This document shows positions 52,772 to 64,000 of a stretch of DNA of 64,000 nucleotides, piece by piece. Source of the stretch: Deltaproteobacteria bacterium (GTDB lineage Bacteria > Desulfobacterota > Syntrophia > Syntrophales > JACQWR01); assembly GCA_016209105.1 (NCBI GenBank), contig JACQWR010000007.1, positions 124,001-188,000 on the forward strand, in the 5' to 3' direction. Both the position numbers and the translations under genes were made by a program. The notes below the pieces were generated by a model. It saw nothing but the letters and a program-made list of their open reading frames with translations. It was not told the DNA's origin and made no database searches. Numbering within the stretch: the stretch's first letter is position 1; every line of letters begins with the position of its first letter.

Positions 52772-53590
52772 TTGAATACTGGAGAAGCCATTATCCTGGG
52801 TGTTGTCCAGGGGTTAACGGAATTTTTACCCGTAAGCTCTTCGGCCCATCTGGTCTTTACCCAGAGCCTTATCCCGGAATTCCATCAGCCAGGGGTCCTC
52901 TTTGATGTTACGCTGCACCTGGGCACCCTCTTCGCAGTCATTTTCTTTCTCAGGAAAAACATCGCAGATATCATGGTATCCCTTACCGAGATTCAATGGC
53001 GGAGGGGTTGCTCCGGCAATACCCTGAAAAGCGGCGGAGTAAGAACGGCTTTTCTCATCATCTTGGCAACCTTCTGTACCGGCGCCATCGGACTTCCTTT
53101 CAAGAGCAGGGTGGAGGAACTCTTCCAATCCGTCGAGACGGCGGCATGCATGCTGCTCATCACGGGGGTTCTTCTCTACCTGGCCGGCAAGGCCAAGAAA
53201 GGAATCAAGAAAGAAGAGAACATGACGGTTGCGGACGGCATTATCATCGGCATCGCACAGGGCGTTGCAATCATGCCGGGCATTTCCCGATCGGGGGCAA
53301 CCATCGCATTCGGAATCTTCAGAAACGTTGATCCCGCCGCTGCGGCAAGATTCTCCTTTCTTCTCTCCATCCCGGCCATTGTCGGCGCCGTTCTCCTGCA
53401 AGCGCGTCATATCTCCTCCGTATCGCCCCATGATCTGCCCGTCTATGTCGCCGGCTTCACGGCCGCCCTCATCGCCGGTTTCGCTTCCCTCAAACTGCTC
53501 TTTAAAGTCATTCATAATGCGGGACTACAATTTTTTGCTTACTACTGCTGGTTCATCGGGATTGCCGCACTTATCGCCAAATCCGTGTAA
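52772..53590 (+). CDS. uppP: undecaprenyl-diphosphatase UppP (BacA)
   Basis: 272-residue polytopic membrane enzyme recycling undecaprenyl-PP for cell-wall synthesis. Motif 1 QGLTEFLPVSSSAHL (residues 13-27) and motif 2 PGISRSGATIAFG are intact. TTG start after TTAGGA; no nearby in-frame ATG. Confidence 0.93.
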   Translation: MNTGEAIILGVVQGLTEFLPVSSSAHLVFTQSLIPEFHQPGVLFDVTLHLGTLFAVIFFLRKNIADIMVSLTEIQWRRGCSGNTLKSGGVRTAFLIILATFCTGAIGLPFKSRVEELFQSVETAACMLLITGVLLYLAGKAKKGIKKEENMTVADGIIIGIAQGVAIMPGISRSGATIAFGIFRNVDPAAAARFSFLLSIPAIVGAVLLQARHISSVSPHDLPVYVAGFTAALIAGFASLKLLFKVIHNAGLQFFAYYCWFIGIAALIAKSV

Positions 53591-53664
53591 CGGGCAACCT
53601 TCGCCACTCCTGCCGGCAGAAATTATCACAAATAACCATCATGAGCAGAAAAAATCAACCATGA

Positions 53665-54030
53665 ATGACGGCACTGCCAGACACTCCCTCGCCCCCGGAG
53701 GCGATACGTATCCGGGAGGAGATTTTCTCGCAACTGCCCGGTGGCTTAAGATGCAGAAAGAAAGAACAGTTAAAGTCTTATGGAGAACTCCGGACACTTT
53801 ACCGGGCGATAAACCCGGAAAAGACCGTCATTGTGTACTGCCATTCCGGCCGAAGGGCGTCATTCACGTACTTTGTGCTGAGATTGTTGGGATTCAACGA
53901 TGTAATCCTCTACGACCATTCCCGGAACGGCTGGGGGAATTGGAAATCACCCTACCCGATAGAAACCGGAACAGCGCACCCAAAAACGACAACCCCCCAC
54001 GGGATCCGACCCGCAGGGGGTTGTAAGTAA
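53665..54030 (+). pseudogene. truncated rhodanese-like sulfurtransferase
   Basis: 121 codons whose 3' half matches the end of a rhodanese domain: VIVYCHSGRRASFTYFVLRL with the catalytic Cys, then YDHSRNGWGNWKSPYPIET. The rest of that domain and the other half of a two-domain rhodanese are missing. The last codons run into the hairpin at 53989-54024, so the reading frame probably continues past its original end. Likely a remnant; a short functional protein is not excluded. Confidence 0.55.
53989..54024. terminator. terminator-like hairpin after the rhodanese remnant
   Basis: ACAACCCCC paired with GGGGGTTGT, plus an inner CGGG/CCCG pair. The A-run lies on the left (T-run for minus-strand transcripts) and there is no T-run to the right, so for plus-strand genes it is a hairpin rather than a clear intrinsic terminator. 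Confidence 0.5.
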
Positions 54031-54153
54031 TCCGCCCATGCCGTCTGTACAGGAGGAAGGAATCGCTTTTTAATCAGGATCCCCTCAGAGGGGGTATGTA
54101 TCCTGTGCTTTTATTATGTATTCGATTCCGTTGCCATGTCCCACTAACGGGCA

Positions 54154-54181
54154 TTGCAGATTTATCTTTCGATATGATAAT
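54154..54181 (+). promoter_or_regulatory. promoter candidate for the octaheme nitrite reductase
   Basis: TTGCAG (54154-54159), 16 nt spacer, GATAAT (54176-54181). It would give a 5' leader of about 200 nt containing the G-run and the inverted repeat. Confidence 0.5.
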
Positions 54182-54289
54182 CGGCATTTCTTCTCCCAAA
54201 CTTTAGTGAAACGAGCATACAAAAGCGGACGCACCGGGGGGGGGGGCAAGAATCTTTTCGGCGCGAAACAGGGGGGTGGAAAGAAGAAC

Positions 54290-54326
54290 GGGAAAAGTGA
54301 TAAAGAGAAGTTTTATCACTTTTCCC
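54290..54326. repeat. perfect 15-bp inverted repeat in the nitrite reductase leader
   Basis: GGGAAAAGTGATAAA, a 7-nt loop, then TTTATCACTTTTCCC. No T-run follows, so it is not a standard terminator; it could be an RNA hairpin or a protein-binding operator. Confidence 0.85.
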
Positions 54327-54385
54327 AAAGGGGATGAAACGGCCGCAGAGATATGCACAATAAGCAGAAACGAGGAGGTACCCAT

Positions 54386-56071
54386 ATGACCGCAAAACAC
54401 GTATTACCAATCACGGCTGTCTTGGCTTTCGTCATCATCGCCTGGAGCGGCGGTTCATCCGCCCAGGGCAAGCATAAAACCGCGGCGAAACCGGTCACTG
54501 CGGAAAAAGCGGTAAACGTTGCGGCCTGCTACGGCTGTCATGCGCCCGTGGAGGAACTTCACCAGGGCGGCAAGCATGCTCGGATAAATTGTTCAAAATG
54601 CCACACCGGCCTCGCCAAACATCTGCAAGATCCGGGACCTTCCACAAGACCCGTTACAAATACCTCATGGGAAGCCTGCGGCCAGTGTCACCGCGAACAG
54701 TACAATAGCTTTATGACGACCAGCGTGCACCGGCCGGCGCGCGACGAGAAGTCCCAGCTTACCAACAGGGCGCCCAATCCTTTCTGGGATAAGCTGATGG
54801 CCGGGCACGGCTTCACCAAGGAGCACAATCTCACCAGAAGCCACGTCCTTATGCTGCCGGACCACCTGGTGGTGGACAGGGCATTCGGCGGGCGCTTCCA
54901 GGGCAAGAACGGCTGGAATTACCTGCTGGAAAAGGGCAAGGCATGGGACATCCTGGAAGACAAGTATCCCGACATCAAGGAGCATAAGCCCATTATTCCC
55001 CAGAGCGCCGCGGCGGCAAATCCAGTTTGTCTGCAGTGCAAGTCCCAGGACCACATCCTCAAATGGGCCTACCGGGGAGATCCCGTTGAGGGAGCGCAGT
55101 GGTCGAGAACATCCAAGGTTGTGGACCTGGTGAAAGACCTCCAGCACGGGCTAAACTGCTTTACCTGCCACGACCCCCATGCGGCAAGACCCCGGATCGT
55201 AAGGGATGCCCTTATTGATGCCCTGACGCGGCCCGACGGGGATACCCTGTGGCACAAGGATCCGCAGCGCACAAAGATGCGGGTCATAGAAATGGGCATG
55301 CGGGGCTTCACGAGAAAGATCGCCCTCCTGGAGAAGTACGACACACGGCTTATCTGCGGGCAGTGCCATGTGGAATACACCTGCAATCCCGGTTATGATA
55401 CGAAAAATCCCGATACATCGAAATACACGGTAACCATGACGGACCGGAGGACGAACCACATCCCCTACAAGGATGTCCTCGACCTCTATGACCACTATGT
55501 GAACAAGGTAAACTTCCTCGACTTCAAACACGCCGTCACCGGCGGGCTCCTCTGGAAGGCACAGCATCCGGAGTCCGAGACATTCTACAATTCAAAACAC
55601 GCGCGGGCGGGGGCCGGATGCGGCGACTGTCATATGCCGAAAATAAAAAATAAGAAAACGGGAAAAACCTACACCTCGCATTTTGCCGTCACGTCGAGGG
55701 TGCAGCTCAAGGATACCTGCCTCAAATGTCACAGCGGGTGGACCGAGGAGCAGGCAAGATATTCCATCGATTCCGTGAAAGCCTACATAAAGGGCAAGAT
55801 GAGGAAAGCGGAATACTGGCTTGCGGCCCTGATAGACAACATAGAAGAGGCGAAGAAAGCGGGCGTGGATGCCGAAGCGATAAGACAGTCCCAGGATCAG
55901 CACCTGAAAGCCCATATCCTCTGGGAATACTGGACGGCCGAAAACTCCGACGGTTTTCACAACCCTGAACTGGCGAGGGAATCGCTCACCCGGTCCGTTG
56001 ACGAATCGCAAAAGGGGATAAAAATCCTGGCCGATGCGCTGTCGGCAAATAAGGCCGCTGCAACAAAGTGA
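54386..56071 (+). CDS. octaheme cytochrome c nitrite reductase (TvNiR/ONR type)
   Basis: 561 residues with a signal peptide (about 1-27) and eight c-type heme motifs: CYGCH (48-52), CSKCH (69), CGQCH (98), CLQCK (215-219), CFTCH (258), CGQCH (324), CGDCH (412) and CLKCH (445). The fourth is CxxCK, the catalytic heme position of octaheme nitrite reductases. The active-site segment CHVEYTC has Tyr331 and Cys333, matching the Tyr-Cys cross-linked pair described for Thioalkalivibrio NiR, and KAQHPESE supplies His394. It would reduce nitrite to ammonia in the periplasm. The ATG follows AGGAGG. No NrfH-type partner is adjacent. Confidence 0.9.
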   Translation: MTAKHVLPITAVLAFVIIAWSGGSSAQGKHKTAAKPVTAEKAVNVAACYGCHAPVEELHQGGKHARINCSKCHTGLAKHLQDPGPSTRPVTNTSWEACGQCHREQYNSFMTTSVHRPARDEKSQLTNRAPNPFWDKLMAGHGFTKEHNLTRSHVLMLPDHLVVDRAFGGRFQGKNGWNYLLEKGKAWDILEDKYPDIKEHKPIIPQSAAAANPVCLQCKSQDHILKWAYRGDPVEGAQWSRTSKVVDLVKDLQHGLNCFTCHDPHAARPRIVRDALIDALTRPDGDTLWHKDPQRTKMRVIEMGMRGFTRKIALLEKYDTRLICGQCHVEYTCNPGYDTKNPDTSKYTVTMTDRRTNHIPYKDVLDLYDHYVNKVNFLDFKHAVTGGLLWKAQHPESETFYNSKHARAGAGCGDCHMPKIKNKKTGKTYTSHFAVTSRVQLKDTCLKCHSGWTEEQARYSIDSVKAYIKGKMRKAEYWLAALIDNIEEAKKAGVDAEAIRQSQDQHLKAHILWEYWTAENSDGFHNPELARESLTRSVDESQKGIKILADALSANKAAATK

Positions 56072-56086
56072 AGCTCTCTTCCTATG

Positions 56087-56120
56087 GGTGTGGGGAGTGG
56101 CACTCCCCACACCTTCTTTT
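56087..56120 (+). terminator. intrinsic terminator of the nitrite reductase gene
   Basis: GGTGTGGGGAGT, loop GGC, ACTCCCCACACC, then TTCTTTT. A strong 12-bp stem 16 bp after the stop; the gene is likely monocistronic. Confidence 0.9.
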
Positions 56121-56193
56121 GCTCGCCTCTTATGCCGAAGATATCTATCATCGCATCAATTTTTTGTGGTCACTTTTTCTGCCCATTATTCCA

Positions 56194-56222
56194 TTGATAT
56201 ACAGAACAGTTTTTCTTATACT
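56194..56222 (+). promoter_or_regulatory. promoter for the MgtA-type ATPase gene
   Basis: TTGATA (56194-56199), 17 nt spacer, TATACT (56217-56222). It leaves a 5' leader of roughly 110 nt, possibly room for a magnesium-responsive element, but none was recognised. Confidence 0.65.
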
Positions 56223-56337
56223 CCCCCAAGGAGTTCTTCTCGAAAAAAGATGTTGCCGGGAAACCAGAAGTATCGGGGGAGACCGCTCTACTCGACTCAA
56301 ACAGATTACTCCATCCGACCCATAAGAAAGGGTCCCT

Positions 56338-58893
56338 ATGATCAAGCAGACTTCATCTTTCTGGAACGTACCGCCCGCCGATCTGTTGACACAGCTCGAT
56401 ACGCAGCCGGAAGGATTGAGCGGCAATGAGGCAACGCGGCGGCTGGCAAGCTTCGGCGTTAATCTCCTGAAACCCCCGAAGCGGTCGGACGCCCTGGCCC
56501 TGCTATTGGCTCAGTTTAAAAGCCCGATTATCCTGACCCTCGTATTTGCGGCCGGGTTGTCTTTTTTCCTCCATGACCCGGTGGACGCCGGTATTATTCT
56601 GATTATCGTCCTGATCAGCGGCCTGCTCGGATTCTGGCAGGAACGGGGCGCCGCCGATGCGGTGGCAAAGCTCCTGGCGATCGTCAGGGTCAAGACCGCG
56701 GTGCTTCGTGAAGGAACAGAGCAAGAGATTCCCGTGGAAGATGTCGTCCCGGGAGACATCGTGTGCCTGAATGCCGGCGACGCCATTCCCGCCGATTGCC
56801 TGATTCTGGAATCCCGTGATCTCTTCGTGGATGAGGCCACCATGACGGGTGAAACCTACCCTGTCGAGAAGGAAGCCGCTCTCTTGCCGCCGGAAACGCC
56901 GCTCGCCGGGCGCATCAACAGCCTCTTTATGGGGACCCATGTCATCAGCGGCATCGCCCGTGCGGTTGCGGTTTTCACGGGTAGGCAGGCGGAATTCGGT
57001 AAAATCTCGGAACGGCTGAAACTGAAACCTCAGGAGACGGAGTTTGAACAGGGTATCCGCCGATTCGGCTTTTTCCTGCTCGAAGTGACCCTGTCGTTGG
57101 TGATCGTTATTTTTGCCGTAAATGTCTACTTCCACCGGCCCGTTCTGGAAGCCTTCCTCTTTTCCCTGGCGCTGGCGGTCGGGCTGACACCGCAGTTGCT
57201 GCCGGCCATAATCAGCATCAACCTGGCCCACGGCGCCAAAAGAATGGCCGGCAATAAGGTCATTGTCAAGCGGCTGGCGTCCATAGAAAACTTCGGGAGC
57301 ATGGACGTCCTCTGTTCCGATAAGACGGGAACCCTGACCGAAGGATCGGTGCGTCTGCATTCGGCATTGGATCTCGATGGTCATGCCAGTGACCGGGTCT
57401 TCCTGCACGCCTATCTGAATGCCTTCTTTGAAAAGGGCTTTGCCAATCCCATTGATGAGGCGATCCGGTCCCATAAGCAACCGGATGTCTCCCGATACGA
57501 AAAGGCGGATGAGATCCCCTATGATTTTATCCGCAAGCGTTTGAGCGTCCTGATAAAGCATGACGGCGCACACGTAATGATCACCAAAGGCACCCTTCCC
57601 CAGGTGCTGGCAGTCTGTTCCCATGGGGAAACACCCGCCGGGGACAAGGTGGACATTGCTGCGGTTACTCCGCAGATACTTCGGCAATTCGAGACGCTCA
57701 GCGCTCAGGGCTTGCGCGTGATTGGTCTGGCTTACCGGGAGATGGGACCGGCATCCGTCATCGGCAAAGGTGAAGAACAGGACATGACCTTCATCGGGTT
57801 TGTTCTTTTCTTTGATCCGCCGAAAAAGGACATTGCCGGAACGATTGACCGCCTCAAAAAGCTGGGTGTGGCGCTGAAAATTATTACGGGCGACAATCGT
57901 CTCGTGGCCGCCAAGGTGAGCCGGGATGTAGGCATGCCGGAAGCGATAATCCTTACAGGAGGAGAACTCCGGGAAATAAGCGACGGCGCACTGTTGCGGA
58001 AGGTACAGGAAACGGACATCTTCTCAGAGGTGGAGCCTAACCAGAAAGAACGCATTATCCTGGCCTTGCGCAAGGCGGGGCATGTCGTGGGTTACCTGGG
58101 GGACGGTATCAATGACGCCTCAGCCCTGCATGCGGCAGACGTGGGCATTTCCGTTGACACGGCGGTGGATGTGGCCAAAGAGGCAGCGGATATCGTGCTT
58201 CTGGAAAAGGATCTGGCGGTTCTCGTAGAAGGCGTGCAGGAAGGCAGGACGACGTTTGCCAACACGCTGAAATACGTCTTTATGTCCACCAGCGCCAATT
58301 TCGGCAACATGTTCAGCATGGCAGGCGCATCCCTCTTTCTGCCCTTTCTTCCGCTGTTGCCCAAGCAGATCCTGTTGACCAATCTGATGACGGATTTTCC
58401 CGAGATGACGATTGCCACGGATCAGGTGGACGTGGAAATGGTGAATCGCCCCCGGCGCTGGGATATTGTTTTTATTCAGAAATTCATGTTCGCCTTCGGG
58501 CTGGTCAGTTCGGTCTTCGATTATCTGACCTTTGGAGTGCTGTTGCTCCTTCTCCATGCCACGCCGGAGCAGTTCCGGACGGGATGGTTCATGGAATCGG
58601 TCGCCTCCGCCGCCATCATCGTGCTGGTCATCCGCAGCCGCAGGCCTTTCTATAAGAGCCGGCCGGGGAATCAGCTGCTTGTCGCCACCCTGGCCGTGGT
58701 AATGGCCACGCTTATCCTTCCCTTCACACCCCTGGGCGGGATATTCGGGTTAGTCCCCCTGCCCCTCTCTTTTCTTCTGATCCTCGCCCTGATCATGATC
58801 CTGTATATCTTCATGGTGGAAGTGGTGAAGAAGGCATTCTATCGGCGAATAAATTCACTCGCTCGGCATTCCCCGTCGCGTGCAGCGGGGTAA
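56338..58893 (+). CDS. mgtA: magnesium-transporting P-type ATPase, MgtA/MgtB type
   Basis: 851 residues, P3B ATPase: actuator TMTGETYPVEK, TM4 GLTPQLLPAI, phosphorylation site SDKTGTLT with Asp328, hinge GDGINDASAL, and six C-terminal helices. MgtA imports Mg2+ in enterobacteria; the ion is assumed from the family. The last residues (NSLARHSPSRAAG and the stop) are encoded inside a family A repeat, which appears to have replaced or extended the original C-terminus. Confidence 0.9.
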   Translation: MIKQTSSFWNVPPADLLTQLDTQPEGLSGNEATRRLASFGVNLLKPPKRSDALALLLAQFKSPIILTLVFAAGLSFFLHDPVDAGIILIIVLISGLLGFWQERGAADAVAKLLAIVRVKTAVLREGTEQEIPVEDVVPGDIVCLNAGDAIPADCLILESRDLFVDEATMTGETYPVEKEAALLPPETPLAGRINSLFMGTHVISGIARAVAVFTGRQAEFGKISERLKLKPQETEFEQGIRRFGFFLLEVTLSLVIVIFAVNVYFHRPVLEAFLFSLALAVGLTPQLLPAIISINLAHGAKRMAGNKVIVKRLASIENFGSMDVLCSDKTGTLTEGSVRLHSALDLDGHASDRVFLHAYLNAFFEKGFANPIDEAIRSHKQPDVSRYEKADEIPYDFIRKRLSVLIKHDGAHVMITKGTLPQVLAVCSHGETPAGDKVDIAAVTPQILRQFETLSAQGLRVIGLAYREMGPASVIGKGEEQDMTFIGFVLFFDPPKKDIAGTIDRLKKLGVALKIITGDNRLVAAKVSRDVGMPEAIILTGGELREISDGALLRKVQETDIFSEVEPNQKERIILALRKAGHVVGYLGDGINDASALHAADVGISVDTAVDVAKEAADIVLLEKDLAVLVEGVQEGRTTFANTLKYVFMSTSANFGNMFSMAGASLFLPFLPLLPKQILLTNLMTDFPEMTIATDQVDVEMVNRPRRWDIVFIQKFMFAFGLVSSVFDYLTFGVLLLLLHATPEQFRTGWFMESVASAAIIVLVIRSRRPFYKSRPGNQLLVATLAVVMATLILPFTPLGGIFGLVPLPLSFLLILALIMILYIFMVEVVKKAFYRRINSLARHSPSRAAG

Positions 58894-59387: not shown

Positions 59388-59851
59388 TGGTACTGCCTCC
59401 CTTAAGTTATGGTGCTTCTTTGACCCCCGTAATTCTTTTCCTTCCGGAAACAAAAAAAGCTCCGTCACATTGCAATGGACGGAGCCCGGAAATTCTTGCT
59501 CCTCCTTCCCCATATTGGGAAAGATACTATTCAGTTGTTGAAGTCAATCACGTTGTTGGTATGAGCCTACTCCTATAATAAGCAATGTCAAGCTCTATTC
59601 GCGGTGGGAAGCCGGGAGTTACTTCAGTCAAAATAATAAAAATGCCGGAACTTTACCACTAAGTGTGGTACAAGCTTCAGGCGTGGATATTCCGATCTGC
59701 CAGTTTCATGGGGGGGTGATTCCGGTCGTGATCGGATTCGCCCGGATTCTCTGCTACGGTAAGATTCTCTCGCCTCAAGGAGGCATAAAAAGCCGCTGCC
59801 GCCATTGCGACTGGTTTATCGATACAACTCGCTCAATAAGAGGGCTTGAAC
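59388..59851. other. intergenic region between the small membrane protein and the glucan synthase
   Basis: 464 bp. It contains a minus-strand terminator hairpin (59452-59485), a possible minus-strand promoter (TTGACT near 59542, TATCTT near 59521), a plus-strand TATAAT at 59574-59579, and a GCCTC/GAGGC hairpin near 59771. No gene is supported. Confidence 0.65.
59452..59485 (-). terminator. intrinsic terminator in the leader of the small membrane protein
   Basis: Minus strand GCTCCGTC, an 11-nt loop, GACGGAGC, then seven T. It is only about 65 bp upstream of the gene it precedes, so it is either the end of a small RNA or an attenuator. Confidence 0.75.
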
Positions 59852-62800
59852 GTGACTTTAAACAGCAAGACCATTCCCAAAATTCTGTCCCAGGTGCGGG
59901 CGAGTCTCCGCGGAAACGGTTTGACACAAAAGTTCACCTGTGTCGAGCCGCCGCTGCGAGACGAGTTATTCAGCGCCGATCAGATGGAGCAGCATGGCAA
60001 GACTCTCGCAGGCTCACACACGCTAAGCCCGGTACCGGCTCCGGATCGGCTTCTGACGCGGCTGGCTGAGAATGAAGGCATCCTGATCGGCGTCCACAAT
60101 TTGCTGACGGAGGCGGTTAAGGCAACCCGCCGGATTACGCCTGCCGGGGAATGGCTGCTCGACAACTTCTATCTGATTGAAGAGCAGATACGCACCGCCA
60201 GGAGACATTTGCCAAAGGGGTACAGCCGGGAACTCCCCCGCCTGATGAATAGTCCGTCTTCTGCTCAGCCGCGCGTCTATGACATTGCGCTGGAGATGAT
60301 TTTACATGGCGATGGACGGGTAGATCCGGAGATTCTCATCAGATTTACCGCCGCCTACCAGACCGTCACCCCACTGAAGTTAGGAGAATTGTGGGCCATT
60401 CCCATCATGCTGCGCCTGGCCCTGATCGAGAATCTCCGACGCATTGCCGCCCGGATCGCTGCAGATCGGATCGACCGTAACCTGGCCGATTATTGGGCAG
60501 ACCAGATGGCGGAGAGCGCTGCGAAGGATCCGAAAAGCCTGATTCTGGTGATCGCCGACATGGCGAGATCGAATCCGCCACTGGTGAGCTCGTTTATCGC
60601 GGAAATGACACGCCGTCTGCAGGGACAGGGTCCTGCTCTGTCATTGCCGCTTACCTGGCTTGAGCAGCGGTTGTCCGAGTGCGGCCAGACGATCCGGCAA
60701 CTGGTGCAGGCGGAAAACCAGCAACAGGCTGCCGATCAGGTATCCATGAGCAACAGCATCGGCAGTCTTCGTTTCCTGGGCGCGATGGACTGGCAAGAGT
60801 TCGTCGAGTCGATAAGTGTTGTCGACCAGACCCTGCGCGAGGATCCCGGCGGCGTTTACGGCACCATGGCTTTTTCTACCCGTGACCGTTACCGCCATGT
60901 CGTGGAAAAGATAGCGAGACACAGCCGGTTTTCCGAACGCGAGGTGGCGCGCACGGCGATCGGGCTGGCGCATGGGGGTGCGAACGCAAACGGCGGCAAT
61001 GATCGCGCGGCACATGTCGGCTTTTACCTGATAGACAAGGGATTGCCGCAACTCGAACGGGCGCTGGAGGTACGCCTTTCCCCATTTGAGTACCTTCAGA
61101 GATGGAGCCGCCGGTTTCCTTTGCTCCTCTATCTCGGCACCATCACCCTGATGACGGCAATTTTTGCCGGAGGCTTACTGGCAAAGGCGCATATCGGTGC
61201 GCTACCGGGATGGGCAATTGTTCTGATCGTACTTCTCTCTGCGCTGAGCGCAAGTCAACTGGCCATCGCGCTGGTAAACTTGCTGGCGACGCTGCTGGCG
61301 ACACCTCATTTGCTGCCGCGCATGGACTTCTCCAAAGGGATCCCACCGGAATTCCGTACCTTGGCCGTGGTTCCGACGATGCTCGTAAGCGTGCAGAATA
61401 TAGAGGATCTGATCGAGGCGCTTGAAGTGCGGTTCCTGGCAAATCGGGACGCTAACCTGCTCTTCGGCCTGTTGACGGATTTCCCGGACGCCGGGCAGGA
61501 GACACTGCCGGAGGATGAACCGCTGTTGCGGCTTGCCCGGCAAAGGATCGAAGAGCTGAATACCAAGTACGGTTCTTCCCTGGGTGACTCCTTCTTCCTT
61601 TTCCACCGCCCGCGTCGCTGGAATCCCCCGGAACGGATATGGATGGGTTACGAGCGCAAACGGGGGAAACTTGCTGACTTGAATGCCCTCCTGCGCGGCG
61701 GGGCAGCCCCCTCACCCTCCAGGGGAGAGGGTTGTAATATTTCCCCTCCCTTGAGGGGAGGGGATGAAGGGGAGGGTGTTAGTAATGTCTCCGGGGATCG
61801 CTTTTCGCTTGTCGTCGGCGACAGGGCAGACTTATCGAGCGTGAAGTATGTGATCACCCTGGATACGGATACTGAGCTGCCGCGCGACGCGGCGTGGCAG
61901 TTTGTGGGCGCCATGGCGCACCCGCTGAATCGCGCGCTCTACGACGAAGATAAGCAGCGTGTCTGCGAGGGATACGGCATTCTCCAGCCGAGGGTTGCCG
62001 TGAGCCTGCCCGGCATGAACCGGTCGCGATACGCGGCAATGTGCGGAAGCGAGCCCGGCATCGATCCCTATACGCGCGCTGTTTCCGATGTTTACCAGGA
62101 CCTGTTTGGCGAAGGCTCGTTCATCGGCAAGGGCATCTACGATGTTGATGCCTTTGAACGGACGCTCAACGGACGTTTCCCCGAGAACCGGATCTTAAGC
62201 CACGATCTTCTGGAAGGGTGTTACACGCGGGCGGGTCTATTGAGCGATGTGATGCTCTACGAGGAATATCCGCCCCGCTACAATGCTGACGTGAGCCGCC
62301 GGCATCGCTGGATTCGCGGCGATTGGCAGCTCCTGCAATGGCTGCTGTCGGGTATTCCCGGCCCCGATGCGCGTCTGCAAAAGAATCCGCTCTCCGTGCT
62401 TTCCCAATGGAAGATATTCGACAACCTCAGGCGCAGTCTTGTGCCCGTGGCGTTGACGCTGCTTTTACTCGCGAGCTGGACGGCCTTGTCATCGGCTTGT
62501 TTCTGGACCCTCGCGGTGCTCGGAATCATCCTGATTCCTTCGGTATTTTCCTCTCTCCTGGAAGTGCTTCAAAAGCCGGGCGACGTGCTTCCGGGTCAGC
62601 ACCTTGCGGCCACCCTGCACTCTGCCAGCCGGAGATTTGCGCAGGCCCTCTTTACGCTCCTATGCTTGCCCTACGAGGCATTTTTCAGTCTCGATGCGAT
62701 TGCCCGCACGGGCTGGCGGATGCTGGTAAGCCATAAGGGGCTTCTCGAATGGAGCACGTCGGACGAACGATATGGCAGCGTCCGCACGAGCCTCGGTTCC

Positions 62801-64000
62801 TTTTGCCGATCCATGTGGATCGCCCCGATTCTTGCCAGCGCCACGGTTATCGATCTGGCGCTTTCGAGGCCCCTTACCCTGGCAGTGGCCGGGCCCATAC
62901 TGTGCATCTGGTTTGTCTCTCCTGTTGTCGCCTGGTGGATCAGCCGGCCGCTTGCGCGCCGTGAAGCACGGCTGACGGCTGACCAGACCGTCTTTCTCCG
63001 GAAGCTTTCCCGCAAGACCTGGGCGTTTTTCGAAACCTTCGTCGGCCCGGAAGATCATTGGCTGCCCCCCGACAATTTTCAGGAGCATCCCGATGCCGTT
63101 ATTGCGCATCGCACGTCGCCGACTAACATGGGCCTGGCCCTTCTCGCAAATTTGTCCGCCTACGACTTCGGCTACATTCCGGCGGGACAACTCATCGAGC
63201 GCACGACAAATGCCCTCCATACGATGGAAAAACTGGAACGTCACCGGGGCCACTTCTACAACTGGTACGACACTGAGTCCCTGCAACCGCTCCAACCTAC
63301 CTACATCTCGACCGTGGACAGCGGAAACCTTGCCGGCCATCTGCTGACGCTGCGACAGGGACTGCTCGCACTTCCCGACGACCGCATTCTGGGACCGCGA
63401 ATGTTTGAGGGGATCAGCGACACCCTCCGTGTTCTCGAGGAGGCAGGTGGCAAAGCCGCTTCGGACCAGCTCGGAGAACTGCGGAAATTGCTCAAGTCCG
63501 CAATCGATTCCCCGCCTGCCACGCTCGCAGCGGCGCGGCTGTGCCTCGATCGGTTGGCAACGTCCGCTGCGGAAGTGGTCGCCGGCATCATTGTTCTCAA
63601 TACGGACCCCCAAGCGCAGTGGTGGGCACATGCCCTTGCCCGGCAATGCCGGGCAGCCCTCAATGAGCTGACATTTCTCGCGGCCTGGACATCATTGCCG
63701 GCATCGCCGGACAGTCTCCGCGAGATGCCGGATATCGATGAAATCCCGACGCTGCGCCAATTGGCCAACCTTACTGTAGGGGCGCACAATGTGCGCCCGT
63801 GGGCGGACGCCGTCCTGCCCTACATCACGGAGGCAGGCCAACGTGCCAGGGTAAGAATCGACACCATCGAAGGGCTGGCACGGCAGATAGCCGACCTTGC
63901 CGCCCATATGGAATACGACTTTCTGTTCGACGAGGCGCGCAATCTCCTGGCTATCGGCTACAACGTCGGGGAACGCCGGCGGGACCCGAGTTACTACGAT
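59852..64000 (+). CDS. ndvB: cyclic beta-1,2-glucan synthase (NdvB/ChvB-like), 3' end outside window
   Basis: 1,383 codons, open to the window edge. It begins with a helical domain, then two membrane helices (about 421-490), a GT84 glycosyltransferase domain with LDTDTE (about 670) and RRHRWIRGDWQ, further helices (about 863-905 and 985-1035), and the start of the glycoamylase-like domain at the very end (FLFDEARNLLAIGYNVGE). Full-length relatives are about 2,800 residues and end in a GH94 phosphorylase domain. Product: periplasmic osmoregulated cyclic glucan. The GTG at 59852 follows GAGGG by 7 nt, and an in-frame stop lies at 59837. Two palindromic inserts are in frame. Confidence 0.88.
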   Translation, partial: MTLNSKTIPKILSQVRASLRGNGLTQKFTCVEPPLRDELFSADQMEQHGKTLAGSHTLSPVPAPDRLLTRLAENEGILIGVHNLLTEAVKATRRITPAGEWLLDNFYLIEEQIRTARRHLPKGYSRELPRLMNSPSSAQPRVYDIALEMILHGDGRVDPEILIRFTAAYQTVTPLKLGELWAIPIMLRLALIENLRRIAARIAADRIDRNLADYWADQMAESAAKDPKSLILVIADMARSNPPLVSSFIAEMTRRLQGQGPALSLPLTWLEQRLSECGQTIRQLVQAENQQQAADQVSMSNSIGSLRFLGAMDWQEFVESISVVDQTLREDPGGVYGTMAFSTRDRYRHVVEKIARHSRFSEREVARTAIGLAHGGANANGGNDRAAHVGFYLIDKGLPQLERALEVRLSPFEYLQRWSRRFPLLLYLGTITLMTAIFAGGLLAKAHIGALPGWAIVLIVLLSALSASQLAIALVNLLATLLATPHLLPRMDFSKGIPPEFRTLAVVPTMLVSVQNIEDLIEALEVRFLANRDANLLFGLLTDFPDAGQETLPEDEPLLRLARQRIEELNTKYGSSLGDSFFLFHRPRRWNPPERIWMGYERKRGKLADLNALLRGGAAPSPSRGEGCNISPPLRGGDEGEGVSNVSGDRFSLVVGDRADLSSVKYVITLDTDTELPRDAAWQFVGAMAHPLNRALYDEDKQRVCEGYGILQPRVAVSLPGMNRSRYAAMCGSEPGIDPYTRAVSDVYQDLFGEGSFIGKGIYDVDAFERTLNGRFPENRILSHDLLEGCYTRAGLLSDVMLYEEYPPRYNADVSRRHRWIRGDWQLLQWLLSGIPGPDARLQKNPLSVLSQWKIFDNLRRSLVPVALTLLLLASWTALSSACFWTLAVLGIILIPSVFSSLLEVLQKPGDVLPGQHLAATLHSASRRFAQALFTLLCLPYEAFFSLDAIARTGWRMLVSHKGLLEWSTSDERYGSVRTSLGSFCRSMWIAPILASATVIDLALSRPLTLAVAGPILCIWFVSPVVAWWISRPLARREARLTADQTVFLRKLSRKTWAFFETFVGPEDHWLPPDNFQEHPDAVIAHRTSPTNMGLALLANLSAYDFGYIPAGQLIERTTNALHTMEKLERHRGHFYNWYDTESLQPLQPTYISTVDSGNLAGHLLTLRQGLLALPDDRILGPRMFEGISDTLRVLEEAGGKAASDQLGELRKLLKSAIDSPPATLAAARLCLDRLATSAAEVVAGIIVLNTDPQAQWWAHALARQCRAALNELTFLAAWTSLPASPDSLREMPDIDEIPTLRQLANLTVGAHNVRPWADAVLPYITEAGQRARVRIDTIEGLARQIADLAAHMEYDFLFDEARNLLAIGYNVGERRRDPSYYD
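61700..61795. repeat. palindromic repeat inserted in frame in the glucan synthase gene
   Basis: About 96 bp: CACCCTCC (61713) pairs with GGAGGGTG (61771), and inside it CCCCTCCC TTGA GGGGAGGGG forms a second hairpin. It encodes about 31 residues (GAAPSPSRGEG to GGDEGEGVSN) between LNALLRG and RFSLVVGD, where relatives run directly from LLRG to a VxxGD motif. Confidence 0.75.
63772..63800. repeat. short palindrome inside the glucan synthase gene
   Basis: GGGCGCACA, one base, TGTGCGCCC (63780-63798): a 9-bp perfect inverted repeat preceded by CTGTAG. It encodes TVGAHNVRP in frame and resembles short mobile palindromes. Confidence 0.55.

Follow-up and report, generated by a model that had tools for sequence, protein, structure and literature searches.

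Octaheme cytochrome c nitrite reductases (ONRs) have been described from Thioalkalivibrio, where they form hexamers, convert nitrite to ammonia and carry a lysine-ligated heme 4 (PMC5433712, excerpts). The published signature of the family comprises three CXXCH motifs, one CXXCK and four CXXCH, with a histidine between sites six and seven; the same source describes ONRs as calcium-dependent and reports 93 onr-only assemblies (PMC10716430). Trichlorobacter ammonificans is an onr-only organism, with no pentaheme NrfA and an ONR that partners with Nap (PMC11972089, excerpts); its enzyme TaNiR and a Desulfurivibrio homologue are of known activity (PMC12142623, excerpts). In Nitrospirales the ONR is thought to be assimilatory, with petBC or NapC proposed as the electron donor (PMC12342949, excerpts), and in Desulfovibrio strains that lack nitrate reductase it is NrfHA that counters the toxicity of nitrite (PMC5701242, excerpts).

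The window analysed here, a stretch of 64,000 nucleotides, carries an onr gene for a protein of 561 residues (Table 1). The protein is an ordinary member of the known nitrite-to-ammonia eight-heme family, and its assignment as an ONR is, on the comparisons below, nearly certain.

Family identity and active site

The start codon at 54386 is preferred over an in-frame ATG at 54353, because the Shine-Dalgarno sequence ends 7 nt before the former. Export to the periplasm is probable from the N-terminus as read by eye.

Table 1. Features of the onr locus (window coordinates)
Feature	Position	Strand	Basis
Perfect 15-bp inverted repeat, 7-nt loop	54290..54326	.	onr leader, ends 59 nt before start codon
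Shine-Dalgarno GAGGAGG	54372..54378	+	7 nt before ATG 54386, read directly
onr (ONR)	54386..56071	+	full-length matches to 2zo5 and 8rv0, inside ONR clade
Predicted Sec signal peptide, residues 1 to ~27	54386..54466	+	sequence read by eye
Heme 1 CYGCH, residue 48	54527..54541	+	motif scan
Heme 2 CSKCH, residue 69	54590..54604	+	motif scan
Heme 3 CGQCH, residue 98	54677..54691	+	motif scan
Heme 4 CLQCK, residue 215, catalytic (predicted)	55028..55042	+	Lys219 aligned with Lys188 of 2zo5
Heme 5 CFTCH, residue 258	55157..55171	+	motif scan
Heme 6 CGQCH, residue 324	55355..55369	+	motif scan
Tyr331-Thr-Cys333, after heme 6	55376..55384	+	aligned with Tyr303/Cys305 of 2zo5
Heme 7 CGDCH, residue 412	55619..55633	+	motif scan
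Heme 8 CLKCH, residue 445	55718..55732	+	motif scan
Terminator-like hairpin	56086..56114	+	14 nt after stop codon, consensus scan

A phmmer search of solved chains matched 2zo5, an "eight-heme nitrite reductase" chain that we take to be TvNiR of Thioalkalivibrio nitratireducens, over window residues 41-557 (E = 2.5e-157; 49% identity over 507 aligned residues), and the octaheme chain 8rv0, presumably TaNiR, over residues 47-556 (E = 6.2e-151), while NrfA chains were matched weakly (best E = 3.9e-26). The eight motifs and the full-length alignment to the eight-heme nitrite reductase chain together exclude chance. Common to the window protein and TvNiR are full-length homology, eight hemes, a lysine-bearing fourth motif and the eight active-site positions compared; TvNiR differs in coming from a haloalkaliphile. 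With pentaheme NrfA it shares a homologous catalytic core (Pfam Cytochrom_C552, PF02335, 186.3 bits), but the NCBIfam NrfA models fall far below their cut-off (113.8 versus 595 bits) and there are eight motifs rather than five, with three extra hemes at the N-terminus. The published signature is present in the window protein, with His394 (opposite His361 of 2zo5 in the alignment) as the histidine that separates the sixth site from the seventh. In a tree from which two partial ONRs and TaNiR were absent, 84 ONRs split from six NrfA outgroup sequences (of 24) with support of 100, and the window protein fell on the ONR side. The original prediction had named an ONR rather than a pentaheme NrfA, with eight heme motifs of which the fourth is CxxCK, and had proposed a phylogeny with both families as a check; the motifs are as described, and the assignment is upheld by the solved-chain match, the outgroup tree and the signature.

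The residues Arg131, Lys188, Glu302, Tyr303, Cys305, Asp346, Gln360 and His361 of 2zo5 align with Arg165, Lys219, Glu330, Tyr331, Cys333, Asp379, Gln393 and His394 of the window protein, and all eight positions are identical in 84/84 ONR sequences (window protein and 2zo5 included; the genome scan behind this sample retained the best 80 of 148 relatives). Of these, Arg165, Tyr331, Gln393 and His394 presumably line the catalytic site. We take Tyr303 and Cys305 to be the cross-linked pair of TvNiR, and the corresponding covalent bond between Tyr331 and Cys333 is very probable from the alignment. The two residues had been predicted at exactly these positions and are there (YTC at 331-333), the bond itself being invisible in sequence; since the tyrosine and cysteine are invariant in all 85 ONR sequences sampled, the pair marks nothing special in the window protein. 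Homology with enzymes of known activity (PMC5433712 and PMC12142623, excerpts) leads us to infer that nitrite is reduced to ammonium at heme 4.

Heme 4 is CX2CK in 84 of the 85 sampled sequences, the remaining one having a gap. Against the published four CXXCH motifs, heme 8 is CX4CH in 32/85 of the same sample, among them L007, L014, L031, L037, L039, L040, L042 and the Deferribacterota sequences, and a strict CXXCH/K count would give such ONRs seven hemes. L007 and L039 are two ONRs of a single Nitrospirota MAG (G153), both with CX4CH at heme 8.

The locus and the rest of the host genome

Neither nrfH nor nrfBCD was recognised beside onr: Pfam identified UppP and a rhodanese-like fragment upstream and a P-type cation ATPase downstream, all non-redox, and two further neighbours had no Pfam match. 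No nap gene was recognised among these neighbours, and of the other ORFs listed for the window none carries two or more CXXC[HK] motifs. The absence of an adjacent NrfH, part of the original prediction, is thus borne out. With a terminator-like hairpin 14 nt after the stop codon, onr is probably monocistronic, and a lone transcription unit fits both the hairpin and the non-redox neighbours; the consensus scan found 6 terminator-like sites in the region versus 3.4 expected. The inverted repeat in the leader has arms TGATAA/TTATCA, and the RNA fold z-score of the surrounding 151 nt is -4.35. A search of the assembly that allowed up to 3 mismatches gave no second copy, Rfam gave no match in 53500-56500, and in a script scan of 27 other ONR leaders no perfect repeat with a loop of 3-12 nt exceeded 11 bp.

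Several minor features lie nearby. At 54236-54246, ~140 nt ahead of onr, stands a run of 11 G, which may be prone to slippage or may have arisen in assembly. The short rhodanese-like ORF (53665-54030) covers only profile positions 35-100 of 102 and is possibly truncated, and an ORF of ~1385 residues running to the window end (59846-64000) has no Pfam match at E 0.001. Synteny with the family mate G001 was considered and abandoned, the UppP of G001 being only 34% identical.

The host assembly is 92.3% complete, so the absences of nrfA, nap and nar are provisional. A profile search of this assembly returned no second PF02335 protein, and hence the search for nrfHA proposed with the original prediction yielded no NrfA. 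The six PF00384 proteins of the host include two formate dehydrogenase alpha chains and one FdnG, all with an in-frame TGA and scanned in part (beyond or before it); the formate dehydrogenase fragments score 240-263 bits for NapA, yet are best, and above cut-off, for formate dehydrogenase. A PhsA-like protein and a DMSO-reductase/formate dehydrogenase-like protein beside an HdrA-like protein reach at most 93.6 bits for NapA (cut-off 904), and the sixth is NuoG, judged by position. The best host match to TIGR01706 is 129.5 bits (FdnG), and no NapA- or NarG-like protein was found among the six (NuoG by position); T. ammonificans, in contrast, has Nap as the partner of its ONR (PMC11972089, excerpts).

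The original statement that the electron donor is unclear stands. The sole PF03264 (NapC/NrfH) match in the host is a 507-residue multiheme protein on contig C12 (112.6 kb), unlinked to onr, with 49.8 bits for the NrfH model (cut-off 134.2). Its neighbour, a nine-motif protein, matches cytochrome b weakly (Pfam, 29.0 bits against a cut-off of 30.1), and ~0.4 kb away, divergent from this neighbour, lies a four-motif protein with NrfC/TtrB-like and NrfD-like proteins. These sets are candidate quinol-to-periplasm modules; nothing ties them to ONR. A tetraheme cytochrome was also tried as ONR partner and rejected, the sole host match being weak (E = 1.6e-4, 29%).

The host carries dsrA (591.7 bits, cut-off 392.85) with a dsrB-like neighbour, and a NirA/sulfite-reductase-like protein of 787 residues (219.7 bits, cut-off 523) which, from its similarity, might reduce nitrite too. 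Besides nitrite, the ONRs of Thioalkalivibrio can reduce hydroxylamine, sulfite and hydrogen peroxide (PMC5433712, excerpts), and the main substrate in vivo could be one other than nitrite, such as hydroxylamine or sulfite. We consider this very improbable: the eight compared active-site positions are the same as in the nitrite reductase 2zo5, and the host already possesses dsrA and a second sulfite/nitrite-reductase-like protein.

Placement of the ONR and of its host

The window ONR sits in a Nitrospirota-rich part of the ONR clade, where its nearest neighbours shift between trees. Its identity to the ONRs of the Nitrospirota MAGs L004, L007, L003 and L078 (75.6-77.9%) is the highest among the best 80 of 148 relatives, a sample that leans towards the window ONR because only those 80 were kept in the genome scan. 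A NapA-type enzyme adjoins the ONR in L004 and L078 but not in L007 and L003, and the hosts differ from ours in phylum by RpoB. For L004, the identity to the host is 77.9% for ONR and 61.4% for RpoB, and for Geobacter UBA4057 it is 65.5% and 65.0%. In an RpoB tree of 27 sequences (RpoB was lacking from 4 of 30 genomes), all 14 Nitrospirota sequences lie on one side of a branch with support of 100; the host stands apart from them and adjoins Desulfocapsa and three 'Deltaproteobacteria' MAGs (support 99). RpoB therefore places the host with Desulfobacterota-type genomes. Mis-binning is unlikely, since rpoB and onr are on one contig, together with ribosomal protein genes recognised by eye.

The approximately unbiased (AU) tests, for groups named after the first tree had been seen, did not reject joining the window ONR to Geobacter/Syntrophobacterales-type ONRs (p 0.60) or to a second deltaproteobacterial group (p 0.68), and both constrained trees had a higher likelihood than the free tree. 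A clade of 16 Desulfobacterota-side sequences was not rejected (p 0.10), and one of 21 was rejected weakly (p 0.039). The careful trees held 64 sequences, without TvNiR and the NrfA and Deferribacterota sequences, or 63 when L080 was also left out. The window onr was likely gained laterally; because the nearest sequences vary and the AU tests keep Desulfobacterota placements, we claim no donor lineage. The new element is the discord between the two genes: by RpoB the host groups with Desulfobacterota-type genomes, whereas the ONRs nearest to its own, among the best 80 of 148 relatives, are those of Nitrospirota. This suggests lateral gain; having consulted the open-access literature, we do not claim it to be unpublished. 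Within Nitrospirota, ONR and RpoB identities barely correlate (r 0.09 over 91 pairs), so ONR is mobile or unevenly paced there too.

Across the order, 35 of 149 genomes have a PF02335 match and 114 have none. Classed from the listing by score, coverage and frame length, NrfA-type matches occur in 27/149 (three partial), ONR in 6/149 (G000, G004, G023, G061, G067 and G125, with both types in G061) and weak matches alone in 3/149. Each ONR of the five order mates has eight heme motifs. In the tree, from which G061 was left out, those of G004, G023 and G125 group with the Geobacter H7geo ONR and that of G067 stands beside the Geobacter UBA4057 type; because they fall at different places, ONR entered the order more than once or was shuffled. 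The expectation, voiced with the original prediction, that such a genome would use NrfA is only partly right: it agrees with the greater frequency of NrfA in the order, but onr-only assemblies are known.

The proximity to Nitrospirota ONRs, the nearest among the best 80 of 148 relatives, bears on a second reading, in which the same enzyme serves mainly nitrogen assimilation, converting nitrite into ammonium whenever the latter runs short. Nitrospira moscoviensis and N. japonica express onr in the absence of ammonium (PMC12342949, excerpts). However, the host is not a member of Nitrospirota by RpoB, Pfam recognised no gene for nitrate assimilation or nitrite transport beside onr, and dsrA would point to anoxic, usually ammonium-rich habitats. 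We regard assimilation as an unlikely main job.

Proposed role and ONR loci of relatives

The explanation that we judge best as a whole, with slightly more confidence than doubt, is a stand-alone periplasmic ONR acting on nitrite from outside the cell; for detoxification as its main role we see an even chance. Detoxification or opportunistic use is preferred because the host has dsrA but yielded no NapA- or NarG-like enzyme among its PF00384 proteins, and because the Desulfovibrio NrfHA system offers a precedent (PMC5701242, excerpts). Against detoxification, many relatives pair ONR with a NapA-type enzyme: the NapA-type molybdoenzyme cluster occurs near ONR in 31/79 loci (of 86 loci, from a genome scan that retained the best 80 of 148 relatives, 7 were dropped for want of an ONR ORF by the overlap rule). 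NapG- or NapH-like clusters occur in 29/79 loci and a tetraheme cytochrome in 14/79, always with a NapA-type gene, in the same set. Three length classes are combined in the NapA-type cluster (~770-830, 920-950 and 1110-1165 residues); for representatives of the first and third the best NCBIfam match is NapA, under cut-off.

This pairing, and an assembly that is not fully complete, would favour full respiratory nitrate ammonification as in Trichlorobacter, with a nitrate reductase that is missing from the assembly or unrecognised. A survey with TIGR01706 covered 50 of 80 ONR loci (49 genomes), the six ONR-bearing order genomes with the host among them, and the ONR-less G001. In 12 of 55 ONR genomes the match is above cut-off, and in 17 more its E-value is below 1e-60 (nine NapA-like and eight of the long class, as read from scores and frame lengths), which gives 29/55. 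The other 26 of the 55, host included, have no NapA-type match, so a lone ONR is common and not exceptional; together with the lack of a NapA- or NarG-like member among the PF00384 proteins of the host (NuoG by position), this makes nitrate ammonification improbable here.

In the preferred reading, seven His-ligated hemes would carry electrons to the catalytic heme 4 with its Lys219 ligand. There nitrite would take up six electrons to become ammonium, and hydroxylamine would by analogy be reduced to the same product, beside a Tyr331 whose cross-link to Cys333 is probable. A single transcription unit and lateral gain are both probable for the gene, which would most likely serve to clear nitrite produced by neighbours, which would guard sulfite reduction and allow opportunistic nitrite use. 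Menaquinol would probably be the donor, its electrons arriving by way of a multiheme or NrfD-type module encoded far from onr. A bolder version, which we find doubtful, is that a laterally gained ONR freed of Nap and NrfH became a pure nitrite scavenger fed by a menaquinol-oxidising module new to ONR, one of two sets that lie together on contig C12: the NrfCD-like/tetraheme proteins, or the NapC-like protein and the nine-heme cytochrome-b protein paired with it.

An ONR alone, with no recognisable NrfA, adjacent partner or nitrate reductase, is mildly unusual in a genome with the marker gene of a sulfate reducer. With this host the likely nitrite-ammonifying bacteria gain an ONR-only genome, one in which ONR and dsrA coexist with no nitrate reductase detected. 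Surveys that count nrfA alone, or that require all eight heme motifs to read strictly CXXCH/K, would overlook such organisms or their relatives.

Two further arrangements were seen among the relatives. At L010:9721-13700, L015:9873-13845 and similar loci, ONR is followed by a small one-heme choice-of-anchor-V protein and a NapA-like molybdoenzyme of 1111 residues, a putative and unusual nitrate-to-ammonium cluster in Nitrospirota (the L010 copies were scanned). At L003:9875-11110 and L080:9700-10929, a protein of 411 residues (409 in L080) with eight heme motifs lies directly downstream of ONR; the L003 protein matches Multi-haem_cyto and, weakly, hydrazine dehydrogenase.
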